Notes under the pieces: generated by a model
Told to the model about the DNA's origin: nothing
What the model saw: the letters and a program-made list of their open reading frames with translations, nothing else
Database searches by the model: none
Part shown: positions 3,438-30,396 of the stretch, one piece after another
How the letters are laid out: each line of letters starts with the position of its first letter
Numbering within the stretch: the stretch's first letter is position 1
Position numbers and translations under genes: made by a program
Virus record (IMG/VR): IMGVR_UViG_3300030333_003824
Span: 1 to 30,396 of that record
Length of the DNA stretch: 30,396 nucleotides
Direction: 5' to 3' (one strand)
Source: a virus

Positions 3438-6400
3438 TAGTTAACCTTTCCATGTCCTGTTGCCGTCCAAGTAAATGCTCTTGCTTGTCGGGCGTTGCTT
3501 GCATTGTAGATGGAGATCGCAAAAGTAGTCGCACTTGAAGAGGCAATCGTATAATAATCGCCCGTAGTAGTGGCACTAAAAGTAATTCCTATTGCTGGCG
3601 TAGCTGCAAATTTATTAGCAAAAGTAACGGTCAAATCACCACTACTTGAGGTAGTCCCTGATCCTGTTTCTGTACGTACCGCCATCATTGGTTGAACTCT
3701 TAACTGGTCAACTGCTATCTGTTCTAAATTTCCACCCGTTGTAAATTCAGCTTTTAACTCATATTTTCGTGCACTTAATTGAGCGTTGTTGTAAACCCTC
3801 CAACTTGTCCAGTCACTATTAGAAGGACTTGCTTCTTGTGTTGTTCTTACATAAAGCTTGACATCACAGTTAGATGGAGCTGTCCCATCTACGCTTGTAA
3901 TAGCATCCCAGTCTGCCCAAGTATCTACATTATCGGCATAAGGGAAAAACGATCTTGCTCTTAGTGTTGTATCAAGCCGAATGGAAAAAACATCTCCCAA
4001 ATCAATCGGGTTGTTTTGAAACAAATAAGTCCCAGACGTGTTTAATGTTGCATTTCCGCCAGAGCTACCCCCATCGGTTGCCATTAATAACTCACCACTA
4101 TCAACAGTTAAATTTGTTTTAGTTCCTGCAAATCCACCATCCTCTTGTTGAAGCGTTAGCAACTTCATATCGTCAAGATCAGGCATTGTAAATTCAACGC
4201 CTGCATAACCGACACTTTCATTACCTGTTGCATCTACGAATTTCATTAAATAAGTTCCGCCTTTTAAAGTTGCGTATGCTTCTTTGGCTGTACCTGTTAA
4301 ATCACTATGAATACTTGTTGCTGTTGCCCAAGTTACGTTTGATAAGTTTGGCGAATGTCTAAGCCGCACCAAACCACCAACCGTTACGTCAAGATCAGTT
4401 GATTGAGTCCAACTAAGACGAGCAAGCCCATTAGTCGGAACCATTGAGAATCCTGTTGGGTCTGATGGTGGAGCTGATTTACCTTCTAATAGTTTTTCAA
4501 AAGTTACAATTTGACTTCCTTTTCCAAGAGTGTTGTAAGCCTGAACTTGAATATAAATGGTTCCTTCTCTTACTCTTCTAATTGTTGCTGAAGGAGTTGA
4601 AGTTGTTATTAGTTGCCAGTTATCATTGTCTATTTTATAGCTAATTCTATATTCAGAAACATTCTTTTTATCATGTTGAAAATCAAAATCAAATCCAACA
4701 AAAACACCTTGACCATCTGAATATAAAAACTGTTCCCCTCTTGCATTTGTTATCGGATTAGGGGCAAGAGTTAAATTACTAATATCCCTAAGAACAATGT
4801 CCTCACCTGCGTCTACAGCATTATAAATACTTGCATTATATTCAAGAGCTGTAACTGATAAAGAAGATTTTTCATTGGTTTCTGCAACTGAAATTACTCG
4901 ATATTGTTGTGATTGAAGATCTGATGTTTGTATTAACCAAAGGTTTGGACTTGTTGGAGCTTCTGAAAAATTTCCGTCAATATTAATTGTAGTTCCACTT
5001 ATGCTATTAATTGTTTTTGTTTCTACCAATCCCGTTGGCATTATTACCGACAATGTTGGGCTTAAGCCTAAATTGATATTTGATAAATTTTCAGAACTAT
5101 CTGCAACAATCGCAGTTGTAGTCGCTGAACTAATTCGTCCTGACCTTCTTTCTCCAGCTCTTAACTCATCTGCAATATCAATAACCATTCCCGGCCTTAA
5201 AACTAAACCTGAATCAATACCAACTGAAAAATTAACTGTTTGGGTAAGAAGTTGTTCGCTTTTTAACAACCATCGACCCATTCTGTGAGCCTGTCCTTGT
5301 GAATAACAACCAAGAGCTTTTACTTGTTTTTCCTGTATTCCGTACTTAGCGATTGCGTCAGCATCTTCAACATATTCAAATTGAACTTCACCTAAAGCAG
5401 CGTAATCTTGCCAAGCCACTGAACATGTTGTATGTCTTGCTCTTTGAGAAGTACCTGAATAAGTAAAAAGCCCTTCTAGTACATTTGAGTTTCCTATTAA
5501 GTATTGACTATCTTGTGGTGCATCTTGCACCATAACAACACTTCCGGCACCGTAATAACTAATCCCTCTAAACAATGAAGTCATCTGTTGAATGACGTTA
5601 TAAACTTCATTTCTTGAATTAATCAAAAGGTTGCAAAGCATCCGAGGCTCTTGGCCTCCTTTCATATCAGAAACAAGCTCATTGCAGTATTTACTTATCG
5701 TGTAAAAATCCCATTTATCAAGTGTACTTTCAGGAAGACCTACGCCATAACGAGCGTTAGTCATTAAATCATATAAGCACCAAGCAGGATCAGCACACCA
5801 CGTAGCAGCTTGAAAAGAGCCGTCCCAAATTCCGCTATAAGTTAATCGGCCTATCTGGGATTCACCAATTCCTGCACTATCATCTTTTGCCGTTATAACT
5901 GTTGCATTGCTTGGAATTTTTACCTTAATTCCTCTAATTTTATATTTTCTAGAAGGAATATTTTGGAAAGAACGACTATCAAACCGTAGAAAAGCAATAG
6001 CCGAGTTTGGATACCTGAATTTTTCATCAATGATTTTGGTGTAACTATTCCACCAAGTTTGAGAACTGTTTTTTACACCCGAATCGTCAGCACTAAGACG
6101 AACAACTTTTATGTCAACGGGGAAATCACCTGTTAAAGGGATTAAATAATCTCTTAAATATGTATTACTTGACTTACCTGAAATCGTGTCTGTCTTTACG
6201 GCGTTATATCCACCGCCGTTATATTGAACATCAATTCTAATCTGAACAGAATTGCCAACAATATCTCCATCATCTTCAACATGTCGAAGAACTGGAACTT
6301 TTATAGTGACTCGTACTCTATCTGTTGTATTTTCTGATGCTGCTATTTGACGAGTAACAGGAGTCGAGTTTGTAACTTGTATCCCAACACCAACTTCTGA

Positions 6401-21274: not shown

Positions 21275-21778
21275 ATGACTTCGATACAAGATCTTAAGCC
21301 TGATCCTCAAAATGCTCGGAAAAGAACTGACCGATCCGCTTCTCTTATAAAAGAATCCATTCAACGTTATGGAACGGCTCGCTCAATAGTTATAGATGAA
21401 GATAATCGTATCCTTGCTGGTAATGGAACTGTTGAAGGAGCAAAAGCAAATGGTTTAAAGAATGTCCGAGTTATTGAGGCTGATGGATCAGAAGTAATTG
21501 CGATAAAAAGAACAGGATTAACCGAAGAACAAAAAATCGGTTTAGCTCTAGCCGATAACAGAACAAGTGACTTATCCGACTGGGATCGGGAAATGTTGCA
21601 CAACCTTTCTCAAACTCATGATGTCAGCCCTTGGTTTGATGAGGAAGACCTAGAAAACCTCTTAGGCAAAGACGACATAAAAGAGTACGAAGGAGCAACA
21701 GAACATTCAGAAGAAGATTTTGACAACTTCCAACACACTTGCCCTAGATGTGGATTTGAGTTTGATGGAAAAAACTAA
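21275..21778 (+). CDS. ParB-like domain protein with C-terminal zinc-ribbon half
   Basis: This 167-residue protein has 'IQDLKPDPQNARKRTDRSAS', 'LIKESIQRYGTARSIVIDED' and 'RILAGNGTVEGAKANGLKNV', the standard N-terminal ParB-like fold; the usual GHxR is replaced by GNGT. 'GLTEEQKIGLALADNRTSDL' is also typical of phage members. The C-terminus has one CPRC in 'HTCPRCGFEF', a half zinc ribbon. Such proteins occur next to phage DNA methyltransferases and terminases. Here the gene overlaps the methyltransferase by 14 bases. A role in DNA modification or packaging control is inferred. Confidence 0.85.
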   Translation: MTSIQDLKPDPQNARKRTDRSASLIKESIQRYGTARSIVIDEDNRILAGNGTVEGAKANGLKNVRVIEADGSEVIAIKRTGLTEEQKIGLALADNRTSDLSDWDREMLHNLSQTHDVSPWFDEEDLENLLGKDDIKEYEGATEHSEEDFDNFQHTCPRCGFEFDGKN

Positions 21779-22811
21779 AGGGCCGTGGCACCTGACCGAT
21801 CTTTCTGGAATAAAAAAGAACGGTTTTAAAGTTTTTAGCTGCTTCCATTGTGGTGGTGGTTCTTCAATGGGATATAAACTCGCAGGCTTTCATGTCTTAG
21901 GTGGTGTTGAAATAGATCCAGAAATGATGGCTTTATATCGAGCAAACCATAATCCGAAACATAGTTTTTTGATGGGCGTTCAAGATTTTAATAAAATTCC
22001 TTTAGAAGAAATTCCTGATGAATTAAAAAATTTAGACATTCTTGATGGGTCTCCACCTTGTTCAGTTTTTAGCATGGCTGGCAAGCGTGAAAAAAAATGG
22101 GGTAAAGAAAATTATTTCCGTGAAGGTCAACAAAAACAAAAACTAGACGACTTGTTTGGTCATTTTATTGAAGTAGGAAAAAGGCTTCAGCCCAAAATAA
22201 TTGTGGCTGAAAATGTTAAAGGTTTAATTGCGGGCAATGCCAAAGGATATGTCAAAGAAATTTTCACAGCCTTTCGTGAGGCTGGATATTCAACTCAATT
22301 ATTCCTTTTTAACTCAGCAAAAATGGGGGTTCCTCAAGCAAGAGAAAGAACTTTTTTTCTTGCTAGACGTAATGATTTAAACCTTCCACCTATAAAACCA
22401 TCTTTTAAAGAATCACCAATTTCAGTAAGAGAAGCCTTTAAAGATATTAAAAAACATGGGAAAGTAAAACAAATTAGTTCTAACCTTCAAAAATTTTGGA
22501 AAAAAGTTAAACCAGGCGATCCTTTATCTAAAGCACATCCAAAAGGCCATTATTTTAATATGAGCGTTGTTAATCCAAATATTCCTGCTCGAACTGTTAC
22601 AGCAACACAGGGATTAATGAAATGGGATGAACCCAGATATTTAAGTGAAGGAGAAATTCTTCGTATTCAATCATTCCCTGAAGACTACAATTTTCTTAAA
22701 TCTGATCCTTGTTATGTTATGGGGATGAGTGTTCCACCTTTCATGACTCAGCGAGTGGCTTTAGAAATTGCTGAGAAATGGCTTATTCCAGAGGCTTCAA
22801 ATGGCGGCTAA
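21765..22811 (+). CDS. DNA (cytosine-5-)-methyltransferase
   Basis: The protein has 348 residues from the ATG at 21765; a TTG at 21720 would extend it into the ParB-like gene. C5-methyltransferase motifs are in order: motif I-like 'VFSCFHCGGGSSMGYKLAGF' (residues 23-42), motif IV 'DGSPPCSVFSMAG' with catalytic C99, motif VI 'AENVKGL' (E149-N150-V151), motif VIII 'QARERTFFL', motif IX 'IPARTVTATQG' and motif X 'VPPFMTQRVALEIAEKW'. It transfers methyl groups from S-adenosylmethionine to cytosine in a specific site, probably protecting phage DNA from host restriction. No cognate endonuclease is seen. The target-recognition region lies around residues 200-285. Confidence 0.95.
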   Translation: MEKTKGPWHLTDLSGIKKNGFKVFSCFHCGGGSSMGYKLAGFHVLGGVEIDPEMMALYRANHNPKHSFLMGVQDFNKIPLEEIPDELKNLDILDGSPPCSVFSMAGKREKKWGKENYFREGQQKQKLDDLFGHFIEVGKRLQPKIIVAENVKGLIAGNAKGYVKEIFTAFREAGYSTQLFLFNSAKMGVPQARERTFFLARRNDLNLPPIKPSFKESPISVREAFKDIKKHGKVKQISSNLQKFWKKVKPGDPLSKAHPKGHYFNMSVVNPNIPARTVTATQGLMKWDEPRYLSEGEILRIQSFPEDYNFLKSDPCYVMGMSVPPFMTQRVALEIAEKWLIPEASNGG

Positions 22812-24524: not shown

Positions 24525-25964
24525 GTGTATAGCGGATTCAATTACTACAACAGGGAGAAATCAGGAGCAACGGCAGACGTTAATGATCCTTGTAATGCTT
24601 GGCTAAATATGGAGCCGCATTGGGTTTTGATTGAGAATTTAGGTGGTGGTACTTATGAAATGAGGTCTAAGCATCGGAGATATTTACCTCAAGAACCTCG
24701 AGAATTAGACGAATCTTATGACAACAGATTAGCTAGATCGGTTTGTCCTCCTTATTATCAACGACTTGAGAGAATGTTGGCAGGGATGCTGACAAGAAAA
24801 CCTGTCAGATTAAACGATGTTAGCGACACAATTCGGGAGCAATTATTCGATGTCGATTTACAAGGCAACGACCTAAATGTCTGGACATACGAAACCGCCC
24901 GGAAAATGATCCGTTATGGACACGTTGGAGTTTTAGTAGATGCACCTGCCGAAGCTGATGGCCGTCCTTATTGGGTCACATATACCCCTAGAGAAATTAT
25001 TGGCTGGAGGACGGAGTTTATAGATGGCGTTCAAAAGTTTACTCAGTTGAGACTCTTAGAGAAAGTAATAGAACCAGATGGAAAATATGGAGAGGTACAA
25101 GTTGAGCAAGTTCGAGTCTTAACACCAGGGGCTTTTGAAATTCACAGAAAAAACGATAACGGAAATTTTGCTGTTTACGAAAAAGGCACAACAACACTAA
25201 ATGAAATTCCTTTTTCTGTTGCTTATGCCAATCGAGTTAATTTAATGGAATCTCGTCCGCCAATGGAGGACATAGCAGAATTAAATCTCAAGGCTTATCA
25301 AACTCAATCAGACCTCGATAATCAATTACATATTTCGGCTGTTCCGATGTTGGCTTTTTATGGATTTCCCCAAACTGCTGAAGAGGTTAGTGCTGGCCCC
25401 GGCGAAGCAATCGCATTTCCTAGCGATGGCAGAGCTGAATATATAGAAAGCAAAGGCACAAGTTACAATGCCCAATTCCAAAGACTTGAGCAGATCGAAG
25501 AACAAATTAATGCACTTGGATTGGCAGCAGTTCTAGGGCAAAAGCTATCCGCAGAAACAGCAGAAGCAAAAAGGATAGACCGAAGCCAAGGAGACTCAAC
25601 AATGCAGGTGGTAGCACAACAGACCCAAGACATGATTGATAACTGTCTTATCTTCCATGCTAAATATTTAGCTGACAATGGATCTGGCAGTTGCTTTGTA
25701 AATCGTGACTTTTTAGCTTCTCGTCTTGATCCTCAAGAGATCGGTAGTTTGCTTCAGTTATTTACTTCTGGAACGATTACGCAAGAAACTCTATTAAAAC
25801 AACTCCATGAAGGTGAAGTCTTAGGAGATGAGTTTGATGTAGAGGAAGAATTAGAAGCAACACAAACGGCGGGACTAATTGAAATGGAACAACCTGAAGA
25901 GGAAGAAGAACCAGAAGAAGAGGAAGAGTCAGCCGAGCCTGAAGATGTTGATGAGCTTGAGTAA
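24525..25964 (+). CDS. Portal protein (DUF4055 type), strongly acidic tail
   Basis: The protein has 479 residues from GTG 24525, with GAGG 9 bases upstream. It contains 'YDNRLARSVCPPYYQRLERM', 'LAGMLTRKPV', 'YGHVGVLVDAPAEADGRPYW', 'LKAYQTQSDLDNQLHIS' and 'GLAAVLGQKLSAETAEAKRI', all as in DUF4055-type portals. The portal forms the dodecameric DNA channel at one vertex. Residues about 456-479 are almost entirely Glu, Asp and Pro, an unusual acidic tail. The TAA of this gene overlaps the ATG of the head protein by one base. Confidence 0.9.
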   Translation: MYSGFNYYNREKSGATADVNDPCNAWLNMEPHWVLIENLGGGTYEMRSKHRRYLPQEPRELDESYDNRLARSVCPPYYQRLERMLAGMLTRKPVRLNDVSDTIREQLFDVDLQGNDLNVWTYETARKMIRYGHVGVLVDAPAEADGRPYWVTYTPREIIGWRTEFIDGVQKFTQLRLLEKVIEPDGKYGEVQVEQVRVLTPGAFEIHRKNDNGNFAVYEKGTTTLNEIPFSVAYANRVNLMESRPPMEDIAELNLKAYQTQSDLDNQLHISAVPMLAFYGFPQTAEEVSAGPGEAIAFPSDGRAEYIESKGTSYNAQFQRLEQIEEQINALGLAAVLGQKLSAETAEAKRIDRSQGDSTMQVVAQQTQDMIDNCLIFHAKYLADNGSGSCFVNRDFLASRLDPQEIGSLLQLFTSGTITQETLLKQLHEGEVLGDEFDVEEELEATQTAGLIEMEQPEEEEEPEEEEESAEPEDVDELE

Positions 25965-28477
25965 TGGCGGATACTCCCGAGGCGTATTACAGAAACGCTC
26001 TTGATTTGAACCGTTTTGGTAATGGCGTTCAAAAAAAGTTAAGAGATTCATATAACAGAATTATTGTTGATTCTGTAGAAAAACTTTCACGGATTAATGA
26101 AATGCCTTTGGAAACGAGGCCAAAATATAAGGCTGCTCGTTTAAAAGCATTACTAAAGCAAACAACAGAAAGTTTGGCGAGGTGGTCGGGTAAAAGTGAA
26201 AAAACTGTAATTAAGGAATTACAAGGCTTGGCAAAAGTGCAGGTCGATTTTGCTGTTAACCAATTAGAAGCGGCTTTACCTGCTGGAATAAAAAGCTCGG
26301 TTAATTCTGTTGAAGTTTCAGCTTCTTATGCAGAATCGGTTGTGACTAAGAAGGCAACAGACTTAAATGCTTCTTTATTGTCTGATGATCTCGAAGCCAA
26401 AGTAAAAGGAGTCCAGCAAAAGTTTTCCCTGACTGCAAAAAAAGGTTCTCAGATTACCCTGCCTAATGGTGAAATTTTAACTAAGGCATTTCGAGGGTTA
26501 GCAGCAAATAAAGCAGAGCTTTTTGGTAGAAATATTCGTGATGGTTTGCTCTCTGGTGAAACAACTCAGCAGATGGCAAGGCGGCTTTATGGTGTTTTAA
26601 AATTTGAAGGTGGTGGAAAAGCTACTAATAATCAAATCTCAACTCTTGTTAAAACGAGCGTTCAGTCTGTTAGTAATCAGGCAGCTCAAACTGTTTATGA
26701 AGCTAATCAGGATATAACAAAGGAATATAGATGGATTGCAACTTTAGATTCTCGAACTGCTCCAGAGTGTCAGATTTTAGATCAGACAACTCATAAATAC
26801 GGGCAAGGTCCAGAGCCTCCACAACATTTTGGGTGCAGATGTCGAACTACTGCTGTTCTTGATTACAAAGGTTTAGGCGTTGATCCTCCTAAATATAAAT
26901 ATGTAAAAAGATCTGGAGAAAATGGTTCGGTTCCAATGGGAACGTCTTATGGCAAATGGCTAAGTCAACAATCTGCTTCTTATAAAGCAAAAACTTTAGG
27001 CCAGAGCAAAGTTAAATATTTTAATGCCTTGTCAAAAAAATATGGCCCAGATGAAGCGTTAAAAAAACTTGTCCGTCAAGATGGATCATCTAAGACTTTA
27101 AAGCAGTTACAAAAGACATATACAAAAACACCTTCCAAGAAACTGGCAGCAAAAACAACTCCAGTTAAGAAACCTGTTCCTAAGAAAACAAAACTTATTT
27201 CAGATAAGGAAAAGAAACAATTCTTAGAATTAGAAAAAACAACGGCAAAAATTCTAAAAGATATTGGAGCTGATCCAGCCTCTGTTGCTTCTTTATCAAA
27301 ACAAATTGCTAAACAACAGCAGAAAGACTTAGCAAAGGTTGTTAAGGCTAAAAAAATTGTCCCTAAAGCTCAAGGTCCAAAAAAAGCAACTTTTAAAGAC
27401 TTATCTGAGGACACTAAAAAGAATCTTCAAAACTTTAAGGATGTTGATTTATCAAAACCAAATCATCAAAAATGGTTTAAAAACAAAAAGGCAATATATT
27501 CGGACATTATTCCTAGTGGTCAATATACAAAGATTACTCCAAAGCAATTAGGGAAGATCGTAGAAAAGAAACAGATTGGACATCTTCAACAGAAATTTGA
27601 TAAAGACTTTAAGAAGTCATTACTTCCTCCTAAACCTGTTAAACCTCGTGCTCCGTTAAAGAAATGGGATGATCCATCCTTTATTCAGAAAAATATTGGA
27701 AGCACCGACACAAAGACACCACCACCACCTCGGAAAGCCCTGAGGAATGGAAAGAAAAAAACTGATGACCTTTATTACAAAGCTGATAATAAAAATGCTG
27801 TCAAAGACTATGACATGACAACAGCGCAATTTAAAGATGCAGAAGAGCAAATCAGTAATTGGACAGGAAGTTATTTTAAAGACATTCGGTCTATTCAAAT
27901 AAAACAAGCAAGATCAGTTGGAAAACAATTAAATCCAAATGAGCTTAGTCTTTTAAATAGATTGGAGCATAGAAGAGGTATGACTTCTTCTCAGCTTGAT
28001 TTGCTGGCTAGGAACGCCGACAAGATGGAGAGATATATAGCAAACTCACCTAAATGGAATGGGCCAACACGCTTTATAAACGAAACTGAAAAATTACATA
28101 AAAATCCTTTTTATACAAAACAACCAAATGGAACAATTTACAGGGGCATGACTGTCCACAAAAAAAGCATTGTTGATGAAGTACTTAAGAATATGGAGAG
28201 AGGCGAAGCAGTCAGCACTATGGAAAGTTGGTCAACAGATCCAAGAACTGCTTTGAAATTTGCAAAAGGAGAAATAGGAGACGGTACTCATGGAATTGTA
28301 TTTAGGCATGTCAATAAACATGGAACACCAATCGAATATTTGAATGGACTGAATGAAAGCGAAATATTACAGCCAAGTGGGGTTAGGTACAAGGTTATCA
28401 GTAAGACTACAAAAAACTGGACAGACAAAGTTAAAATGGAGCACTCTATGACTGAAGTTGTTTTACAAGCTATTTAA
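25964..28477 (+). CDS. Head morphogenesis protein fused to ADP-ribosyltransferase domain
   Basis: This is an 837-residue fusion. Residues about 1-320 match Mu gpF/SPP1 gp7-type minor head proteins, with 'WIATLDSRTAPECQILDQTT' and 'PPQHFGCRCRTTAVL'. Residues about 380-560 are a Lys/Pro-rich linker. The C-terminal part (about 600-837) has the R-S-E pattern of ADP-ribosyltransferases: 'TIYRGMTV' (R727), 'ESWSTDPRTALKFAKG' (S757-T758) and 'LNESEILQPSGVRYKV' (E798-S-E800). Such a domain would transfer ADP-ribose from NAD to a target protein. If injected with the DNA, as T4 Alt is, it could modify host proteins at the start of infection. That last step is inference. Confidence 0.9.
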   Translation: MADTPEAYYRNALDLNRFGNGVQKKLRDSYNRIIVDSVEKLSRINEMPLETRPKYKAARLKALLKQTTESLARWSGKSEKTVIKELQGLAKVQVDFAVNQLEAALPAGIKSSVNSVEVSASYAESVVTKKATDLNASLLSDDLEAKVKGVQQKFSLTAKKGSQITLPNGEILTKAFRGLAANKAELFGRNIRDGLLSGETTQQMARRLYGVLKFEGGGKATNNQISTLVKTSVQSVSNQAAQTVYEANQDITKEYRWIATLDSRTAPECQILDQTTHKYGQGPEPPQHFGCRCRTTAVLDYKGLGVDPPKYKYVKRSGENGSVPMGTSYGKWLSQQSASYKAKTLGQSKVKYFNALSKKYGPDEALKKLVRQDGSSKTLKQLQKTYTKTPSKKLAAKTTPVKKPVPKKTKLISDKEKKQFLELEKTTAKILKDIGADPASVASLSKQIAKQQQKDLAKVVKAKKIVPKAQGPKKATFKDLSEDTKKNLQNFKDVDLSKPNHQKWFKNKKAIYSDIIPSGQYTKITPKQLGKIVEKKQIGHLQQKFDKDFKKSLLPPKPVKPRAPLKKWDDPSFIQKNIGSTDTKTPPPPRKALRNGKKKTDDLYYKADNKNAVKDYDMTTAQFKDAEEQISNWTGSYFKDIRSIQIKQARSVGKQLNPNELSLLNRLEHRRGMTSSQLDLLARNADKMERYIANSPKWNGPTRFINETEKLHKNPFYTKQPNGTIYRGMTVHKKSIVDEVLKNMERGEAVSTMESWSTDPRTALKFAKGEIGDGTHGIVFRHVNKHGTPIEYLNGLNESEILQPSGVRYKVISKTTKNWTDKVKMEHSMTEVVLQAI

Positions 28478-28655
28478 GATAATCAGGTTTTTCTGAAAGG
28501 TTGATTGTTTCTGTTTTAACTCCTTGCTCTTTTAAATAATTGTCCAGATCTTTGTCAACCTCCTTGTTTGTTCTGTCGTCATCAGGGTCGATGTTGTAGC
28601 TAATCCCAATAGCCGTAAAGGGGCTTTTGTCAAGATAGGATTCTTTTTTAGCCAT
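28470..28655 (-). CDS. Antisense small gene with its own promoter in the head operon
   Basis: This 61-residue protein reads 'MAKKESYLDKSPFTAIGISY', 'NIDPDDDRTNKEVDKDLDNY' and 'LKEQGVKTETINLSEKPDYL'. No family is recognised. It is the only minus-strand gene between 21.3 and 30.4 kb. A full TGTACA-N17-TAAGAT element lies upstream (28678-28709), and its 3' end overlaps the head protein by 8 bases. The promoter places it in the same regulon as the small accessory genes, probably at a different time from the late head genes around it. Confidence 0.75.
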   Translation of the reverse strand: MAKKESYLDKSPFTAIGISYNIDPDDDRTNKEVDKDLDNYLKEQGVKTETINLSEKPDYLK

Positions 28656-28677
28656 TGACTTTTTTTCGGCTTACTCT

Positions 28678-28709
28678 TATCTTAATAAGAATAGCGTATT
28701 TTGTACACC
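28678..28709 (-). promoter_or_regulatory. Promoter/operator element of the antisense gene
   Basis: On the minus strand GGTGTACA (28709-28702), a 17-base spacer and TAAGAT (28684-28679) are present, with the palindrome ATTCTTATTAAGATA (28692-28678). AAGAGTAA follows at the expected start site. The AAAAACCAC leader is absent here. Confidence 0.75.
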
Positions 28710-28795: not shown

Positions 28796-29479
28796 ATGGC
28801 TGAAGAACAGAATCAAGAGGTTATGCCTGTTGACTCTTCTGAGAACGCAGAAGCACAATCCTTGAAAAACGAAATTGAAAGTCTTAAGAAAAAGAACTAC
28901 GAACTAATTGGCAAAATGCAGAAGAAGGAGCTTTTAGAAGTTCCCCCTGACTATGAAGCCCTAAAGGAGTTCAAGCAAAATGCAGAACAATCTCGACTCG
29001 AACAAGAGGGAAAATATGGAGAAGCCAAAACCGCTCTTGAAAAACAATACAGAGAAAAATCAGGTGAAGACAAAAAACGAATTGACGAACTCGAAGCAAA
29101 AGTCCGAGAGCTTGAACTCGTCAGTCCAGCAGTCCAAGCCTTGGCGGAAATCGTACATGACCCAAATTTAGTTTTAAACAACTTTCTTCCTAAAGATAAA
29201 ATAGAGGTTGATAATGGTGTTCCTGTCGTTGTTGATGGATACGAAAGAACTCCTGTCAACGACTGGGCTAAAGCTAAACTTCCTGATTATATTTTAAGGC
29301 AACCAAAGCCACAAGGAGGAGGCGCACCTGTAGGCAAAGCGACAGGAGCAGATCTACCTGTTGGGATGAAAGAAAACCCATTTGAAAATGGTGGAAATGT
29401 TACAGAACAAATGCGACTTTATAGGACTGATAAAGCACTTTATGACCGTTTATTAGCTCAATCGAAGTTAAAACGCTAA
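28796..29479 (+). CDS. Capsid scaffolding protein
   Basis: This 227-residue, highly charged helical protein has long coiled-coil-like stretches ('LKNEIESLKKKNYELIGKMQ', 'DKKRIDELEAKVRELE'; about residues 20-110) and a C-terminal part 'GMKENPFENGGNVTEQMRLY' with 'RTDKALYDRLLAQSKLKR'. That ending, a basic helix next to 'NPF', is typical of scaffolds directly upstream of the major capsid gene. It would guide procapsid assembly and then leave. No protease is seen nearby, so maturation cleavage is not evident. Scaffold by position and composition. Confidence 0.85.
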   Translation: MAEEQNQEVMPVDSSENAEAQSLKNEIESLKKKNYELIGKMQKKELLEVPPDYEALKEFKQNAEQSRLEQEGKYGEAKTALEKQYREKSGEDKKRIDELEAKVRELELVSPAVQALAEIVHDPNLVLNNFLPKDKIEVDNGVPVVVDGYERTPVNDWAKAKLPDYILRQPKPQGGGAPVGKATGADLPVGMKENPFENGGNVTEQMRLYRTDKALYDRLLAQSKLKR

Positions 29480-29556: not shown

Positions 29557-30396
29557 ATGGCCACCGTAAGGTCGGACATCATAATTCCTGAGGTCTTTAC
29601 GCCATACGTTATTGAGCAAACAACGCAGCGTGATGCCTTCTTGGCTAGCGGTGTGGTTCAGCCTATGAGCGAGCTTAATGCGACAGATGGCGGAGATTTC
29701 GTGAATGTCCCTTTCTGGAAAGCAAACCTTTCTGGAGATTTTGAAGTATTAACTGATAGCACTTCATTAACACCAAGTAAAATCCAAGCTGACAAACAGA
29801 TTGGCGTAATCCTTCACAGAGGTCGTGCTTGGGAATCAAGAGACTTAGCTGCTTTGGCTGCTGGTGCTGATCCTATGGCCGCTATTGGTCAGAAGGTTGG
29901 TGCTTACATAGCAAACCAAAGACAAAAAGATCTTCTTGCTTGTCTTGACGGCGTTTTTGGTTCAATCAATGCAAATGACAGCAACTCTGCTTTATTTGCA
30001 AACTGCATTGACTCCGAAAGTGGCGACACTCCAACAAGCTTAAGTCCTAAGCATGTTGCGAAGGCTAAAGCGATTCTTGGAGATGCTGGCGATCAGCTTT
30101 CAGCAGTTTGTATGCACTCAAAAGTGTATTATGACTTGGTTGAGCGTAAGTTAGTTGATTATGTAGTTGCTGGAGATACTGGTGCTGGTGCAACCGCATC
30201 TGGTGGATCAATCGCTCCTGCATACGCTCCCGGCAACAATACTGTTCCTACATATTGCGGATTAAGAGTTATCGTTTCTGATGATGTTTCTACTACAGGT
30301 AGTGGAGCTTCAACAGAGTATTCCACGTTCTTCTTTACACCCGGAGCAGTTGCTTCTGGTGAGCAAGCTGGAATGACAATGGAGACTGATAGATAC
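29557..30396 (+). CDS. Major capsid protein, C-terminus cut by window edge
   Basis: The frame is open from ATG 29557 to the window edge (280 codons, no stop). It has 'IIPEVFTPYVIEQTTQRDAF' at the start, 'DGGDFVNVPFWKANLSGDFE', 'LHRGRAWESRDLAALAAGAD' and 'AVCMHSKVYYDLVERKLVDY', then 'YCGLRVIVSDDVSTTG'. The order of N-arm, spine and A-domain-like segments and the position after a scaffold indicate an HK97-fold capsid subunit. Upstream, 29480-29556 contains GC-richer sequence with short GGG/CCC pairs but no clear promoter. The product is incomplete at its C-terminus. Confidence 0.9.
   Translation, partial: MATVRSDIIIPEVFTPYVIEQTTQRDAFLASGVVQPMSELNATDGGDFVNVPFWKANLSGDFEVLTDSTSLTPSKIQADKQIGVILHRGRAWESRDLAALAAGADPMAAIGQKVGAYIANQRQKDLLACLDGVFGSINANDSNSALFANCIDSESGDTPTSLSPKHVAKAKAILGDAGDQLSAVCMHSKVYYDLVERKLVDYVVAGDTGAGATASGGSIAPAYAPGNNTVPTYCGLRVIVSDDVSTTGSGASTEYSTFFFTPGAVASGEQAGMTMETDRY

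Follow-up and report, generated by a model that had tools for sequence, protein, structure and literature searches.

The 30,396-base virus record analyzed here (IMG/VR record IMGVR_UViG_3300030333_003824, 38.5% G+C; hereafter the window) encodes an 837-residue protein in which a MuF-type minor head domain is joined through a linker to a predicted ADP-ribosyltransferase (ART) domain. DNA comparisons indicate that the linker-ART region, together with a convergent 61-residue gene that overlaps the stop codon of the head protein gene, moves as one cassette between near-identical phage backbones. With moderate confidence, we place this locus in a system of polymorphic MuF effectors that marine cyanophages carry, each paired with its cognate inhibitor; injection, enzyme activity and inhibition are predicted steps of this system. 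An earlier reading of the DNA by a model, made without database searches (the original prediction), had proposed the head protein and its ART domain; the convergent small gene, which was absent from it, is the strongest feature of the locus. Coordinates of all features are given in Table 1.

Our analysis confirmed that the open reading frame (ORF), whose ends and length were exactly as predicted, encodes a minor head protein of the MuF/SPP1 gp7 type, which a linker rich in Lys and Pro connects to an R-S-E ART domain. The Mu-F/gp7-like assignment was supported by PF04233 (48.4 bits against a curated cut-off of 29.6), TIGR01641 (SPP1 gp7; 48 against 39.65) and PHROG 241 (E=5e-72), and the gene lies directly 3' of the portal gene in the head module, with the scaffold gene on its other side. 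The composition of the linker was also as described, with 17-26 Lys per 100 residues over about residues 300-650 and a Pro-rich part near 550-600. On the basis of the head protein, the nearest cultured relatives were the cyanophages KBS-S-2A (47.6% identity), S-H1 and MED4-184, and the host of the window virus is likely to be a marine picocyanobacterium. In KBS-S-2A (416 residues) and S-H1 (407 residues) the head domain stands alone, and 74 IMG/VR relatives stop 9-14 residues past the MuF region. Thus, the C-terminal half has been added to a structural protein that is complete without it.

The window ART domain had no significant Pfam match of its own and none in sequence or profile searches of the PDB, yet two relatives bridge it to PF03496 (ADPrib_exo_Tox): the homologous domain of the relative L020 passes the family cut-off (23.8 versus 23.4 bits), and a protein of cyanophage S-2L, which matches the window ART at E=2e-17, itself matches PF03496 at E=0.0017. 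An AlphaFold model built from 34 relatives reached a predicted local distance difference test score (pLDDT) of 81.9 and a predicted template modelling score of 0.77; a first run with 15 close relatives (pLDDT 41) was discarded. All 50 listed best Foldseek matches of the model in the PDB were ART-fold proteins (best E=8.5e-6), including Vis, C2-I, Certhrax, CDTa, Tre1, VIP2, SpvB, C3 and SidE-type mono-ART domains, so that the fold expected from the original prediction was recovered. These matches are remote (about 10-15% identity), and similarity to ModA/ModB and related phage ARTs was found at the fold level only. Tre1 (6drh/6dre, E=4.6e-5) and Vis (4xzj, E=8.5e-6) also share aligned motifs with the window domain, the sequence similarity being non-significant (E=1.1); unlike the window ART, Tre1 is a PAAR-linked toxin of the type VI secretion system and is not phage-borne. 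The best viral fold matches included proteins sized like ORF030 of the cultured phage P-SS2 (1499 residues) and S-2L gp17 (489 residues), as well as other phage head proteins. No bacterial relative of the window ART was found in a scan of genome contigs.

Five residues (R727, S755, W756, E798 and E800) were invariant across the 34 relatives, down to 30% identity, whereas position 758 varied. All residues named in the original prediction (R727, S757, T758, E798 and E800) do sit where it placed them, and its arginine and E798-x-E800 pair were upheld; its choice of S757-T758 as the serine motif was replaced by S755-W-S757, in which S755 is invariant and 757 is Ser or Thr. The segment S755-W-S757-T-D-P-R-T-A-L-K-F aligns without gaps on S-T-S-T-L-P-E-V-A-K-R-F of Vis (STSTLPEVAKRF), which sets S755-W-S757 on the STS motif; judged from this alignment, the serine of R-S-E is probably S755, displaced by two from the earlier choice. 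Among R-S-E ARTs, an ExE motif indicates an arginine acceptor, and the predicted enzyme would have this specificity. It could be argued that the fold has been kept as a catalytically dead structural or binding module, with which the remote fold matches would agree, but the R, S and ExE positions and the residues around them do not vary among the 34 sequences, even at 30% identity, and other enzymes replace the domain in relatives, and we regard this as very improbable. Judged by the modelled fold and the conserved catalytic residues, the domain is probably an active ART.

Exchange of the C-terminal region could be followed directly in DNA. Identity between the window and L020 stayed near 90% up to about position 27163, fell to about 45% over 27164-28663 and was again about 90% beyond, and identity to the relative L021 likewise falls at 27164 and recovers from 28664 on; the right boundary is situated shortly past the minus-strand 61-residue ORF. 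The same boundaries were observed in two other pairs (L006/L117 and L003/L134), and a further pair (L010/L115) had the same break with a slower downstream return of identity. On heads about 90% identical to that of the window, L020 carries a different ART (ART2) and L021 a Zeta toxin plus a protein-kinase-like domain, the latter combination also occurring in L023 (head 83% identical). The Zeta-toxin domain in these two genes (L021 3561-5156 and L023 1080-2702, each with the protein-kinase-like domain) matched at E=4e-26. In the head-domain tree, effector type changes at least 17 times, with well-supported branches forcing at least 10 changes for ART1a, and the six-member head clade of the window alone holds four effector types (ART1a, ART1b, ART2 and Zeta+kinase). 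Assembly chimeras were judged an unlikely source of these swaps: in the pairs of the window, neither flank is identical, each differing by roughly 5-25%; many metagenomes contribute, the ART is present in two closed genomes, and the P-SS2 isolate has the architecture. As a separate observation, the head protein of Prochlorococcus phage MED4-184 (L019 4992-7277) has a C-terminus that contains an HExxH motif and weakly matches ATLF metallopeptidases, and its gene is followed by a co-directional 63-residue ORF.

The small gene follows the effector. Wherever the DNA downstream of an ART1 gene is intact, a member of the 61-residue family adjoins that gene; at ART2 genes, this place is taken by a different 59-residue gene, and Zeta+kinase genes have two convergent small genes (52 and 81 residues), so that each effector type has its own. 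Defined as a convergent ORF of at least 45 residues ending within -10 to +3 of the effector stop, a small gene was present at 41 of 43 effector loci (42 if the non-ATG copy of L122 is counted) and at none of 70 MuF-only loci. The ratio of nonsynonymous to synonymous substitution rates (dN/dS) of the 61-residue gene was 0.04-0.18 against relatives, which indicates strong purifying selection; a chance ORF was ruled out by this ratio and by the MuF-only controls. In a paired contrast, in which independent exchanges were counted as 9 and 4, small-gene type matched effector type in every row with intact DNA; effector type entered this contrast as both traits, and its p-value was not used. The small genes had no convincing PHROG match, and PADLOC gave no result. 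A TTTACA-17-TAAGAT-like element recurs upstream of the small gene in many relatives, for the most part within conserved DNA that flanks the cassette; we do not claim it as a dedicated promoter, since the window copy (28679-28707, minus strand) is weak (a score of 8 of 12) and was not flagged by the scan.

Evidence from virions is available for P-SS2, whose ORF030 (L017 3430-7929) is a MuF-Zeta-ART protein of 1499 residues with an ART domain 31% identical to that of the window. In the published P-SS2 study, ORF030 was detected in purified particles with an average of 96.5 peptides, exceeded among the table rows considered only by the tape measure protein (102 peptides), and was named the major capsid protein (PMC2784084). 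Judged by its Pfam match, it is instead a MuF-type head protein. This finding agrees with the proposal that the window protein is probably virion-carried. Beyond the ART (about residues 1200-1370), the sequence of ORF030 resembles, by eye, a further ART-type domain. The same source lists ORF031-033 at 1-2.5 peptides each (PMC2784084). ORF033 is homologous to the 81-residue protein (E=2e-11), and ORF032 was the only weak-range non-self match of the 61-residue family profile (E=9e-4 among 20,776 six-frame ORFs). Co-packaging of the small partner with its effector is possible, the peptide support from P-SS2 being weak.

These particle data also bear on the main rival to an inhibitor, namely that the 61-residue protein serves as a packaging chaperone or pilot dedicated to its effector, which it would load or unfold without inhibiting the activity. 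The presence of ORF031-033 in purified particles, two of them homologous to small cassette genes, would fit such a role. However, only 1-2.5 peptides were recorded for each, and those neighbours of MuF toxins whose function has been established act either as inhibitors or as ADP-ribosyl hydrolases (Bxa, PMC11699363); we therefore consider it unlikely. In the inhibitor interpretation that we favour, the MuF part would dock the minor head protein at the portal, and the C-terminal, arginine-type mono-ADP-ribosyltransferase would be carried into the particle. The 61-residue protein would most likely bind the ART and silence it while particles are being assembled in the producing cell. When a new cell is infected, the ART would enter with the DNA while the inhibitor would be left behind, and the injected enzyme might modify arginines on host proteins, favouring takeover or countering defence. 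Taken together, the data suggest a set of exchangeable injected effectors, each with its own safety catch.

The original prediction compared the protein with T4 Alt. As a model for virion delivery this comparison is a good one; it leaves the partner gene unexplained, and T4 Alt is not the closest model, because the C-terminus here belongs to an exchangeable cassette that includes a small convergent gene of its own, which brings the locus closest to the MuF polymorphic toxins (PMC5576092; Bxa, PMC11699363). To our knowledge, T4 Alt has no cassette-linked partner gene. In a fully Alt-like scheme, the injected ART would modify host RNA polymerase or translation and be harmless during assembly, and the 61-residue gene would be an unrelated regulator or hitchhiker. 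Virion-borne ARTs fused to head proteins (PMC9503650), the fold matches to ModA/ModB and a closed relative in which lysogeny genes were not seen are all compatible with it. Nevertheless, in every exchange the small gene has moved together with the effector, each type of effector comes with a small gene of its own, and effectors can be exchanged for Zeta/kinase and other enzymes, which makes such a scheme improbable.

Several observations weigh against a virion-carried effector with a cognate inhibitor. The P-SS2 peptides were published without positions, and the ART might be lost by proteolytic processing; no protease was recognised among the head-module genes of the window, whose contig ends inside the major head gene. 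Among the 43 effector loci, S-2L is an exception without a recognisable small partner. The 61-residue gene and the effector gene point in opposite directions, which is not the arrangement of classic immunity genes. Finally, in a closed 42,160-base relative with a 77-base terminal repeat, no lysogeny gene was recognised among scanned ORFs of at least 100 residues outside the structural region, and the need for immunity is thus less obvious. No integrase was found in the window or in the closed relative among ORFs of that size, a weak negative because PF00589 also missed the annotated integrase of P-SS2. More speculatively, these marine cyanophages, possibly strictly lytic, might carry exchangeable virion-packaged MuF effectors, each co-packaged with its convergently encoded inhibitor, which would guard the virus-producing cell, not a lysogen, and be shed at effector ejection, a logic unlike that of temperate toxin-immunity pairs; we put this forward tentatively, as a rather doubtful extension.

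With regard to S-2L, a 2-aminoadenine (Z-DNA) cyanophage whose MuF-ART protein is homologous to the window ART, a minus-strand ORF (5557-5748) overlaps the end of the MuF-ART gene (L018 4119-5588) by 32 bases. Elsewhere in the window, upstream of the terminase, a ParB-like protein gene overlaps a C5 cytosine methyltransferase gene (21275-22811); in the relative G008, a ParB-like domain and a methyltransferase are fused in a single 412-residue protein.

Table 1. Positions of the head-module features in the window and the basis for each
Feature	Position	Strand	Basis
Portal protein gene	24525..25964	+	PHROG 145, E=3e-116
MuF-linker-ART minor head protein gene, 837 residues	25964..28477	+	Intact ORF; MuF domain searches, AlphaFold, Foldseek
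MuF/SPP1 gp7-like domain, residues 190-295	26531..26848	+	PF04233, E=1.9e-12; TIGR01641, E=1.4e-12
Lys/Pro-rich linker, about residues 386-600	27119..27763	+	Composition; MuF-only relatives end at linker start
Exchanged cassette (effector and small gene)	27164..28663		DNA identity versus L020 and L021; boundaries by 150-nucleotide bins
Predicted ART domain, residues 602-837	27767..28474	+	AlphaFold pLDDT 81.9; Foldseek against PDB; conservation
R727, R of R-S-E	28142..28144	+	Invariant in 34 sequences
S755-W756-S757, probable STS-equivalent motif	28226..28234	+	S755 and W756 invariant; 757 Ser/Thr; gapless match to Vis
E798-x-E800, ExE motif	28355..28363	+	Both Glu invariant
Convergent 61-residue gene, a predicted cognate partner/inhibitor; overlaps the stop codon of the ART gene	28470..28655	-	Presence at all ART1 loci with intact downstream DNA; dN/dS; effector versus MuF-only counts
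Scaffold protein gene	28796..29479	+	PHROG 206, E=2e-17
Major head protein gene, cut by window end	29557..30396	+	PHROG 247, E=1e-67

Marine cyanophages are abundant, and little is known about what they inject besides DNA. Here, sequence alone was enough to read the effectors, the points at which they are exchanged and, for each, a candidate partner, and P-SS2, as a cultured phage with existing virion proteomics, makes the idea directly testable. If the small proteins are inhibitors, they would show how a possibly non-lysogenic phage handles dangerous cargo during assembly. Full-text searches of non-subscription literature returned no article dealing with cyanophage MuF toxins.

Among known systems, T4 Alt is an ART of the phage head that acts at entry (cited in PMC5512222); unlike the window protein, it is not a MuF fusion. 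Head-ART fusions are known in some phages, as the original prediction had noted: in the parts consulted, two surveys describe MuF-Alt/VIP2 fusions and polyvalent proteins in which ARTs are joined to MuF or portal proteins and for which packaging and injection are predicted, and name the fusion class without this cyanophage lineage or a cassette partner gene (PMC9503650, PMC5512222). P-SS2 ORF030 resembles the window protein in its MuF part, homologous ART and homologous small neighbours, whereas it also has a Zeta domain, ORF032 and ORF033 are co-directional with only ORF031 convergent, and P-SS2 has an integrase. Bxa of a Bacteroides stercoris prophage is likewise a MuF-ART fusion with adjacent small immunity genes and MuF homologues bearing other toxins (PMC11699363); it has been tested experimentally and is paired with an ADP-ribosyl hydrolase and a binding inhibitor, whereas here there is one small predicted partner, and no ADP-ribosyl hydrolase was recognised among the scanned ORFs of the window. 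MuF polymorphic toxins share with our locus an N-terminal MuF domain, a variable C-terminal toxin, short MuF-only siblings and a small adjoining ORF, small ORFs following 89.4% of toxin genes, while among short MuF genes the share is 25.5% (Jamet et al., 2017, PMC5576092). They have been reported in temperate phages only (PMC5576092), in contrast with the closed relative lacking a recognised lysogeny gene, and our small gene differs in being convergent, in overlapping the stop codon and in belonging to a marine cyanophage lineage. Both MuF-ART fusions and MuF toxin-immunity pairs had thus been described before; what this analysis adds is the lineage, the convergent overlapping layout, direct evidence for the movement of effector and partner as one cassette, and the tie to virion proteomics.

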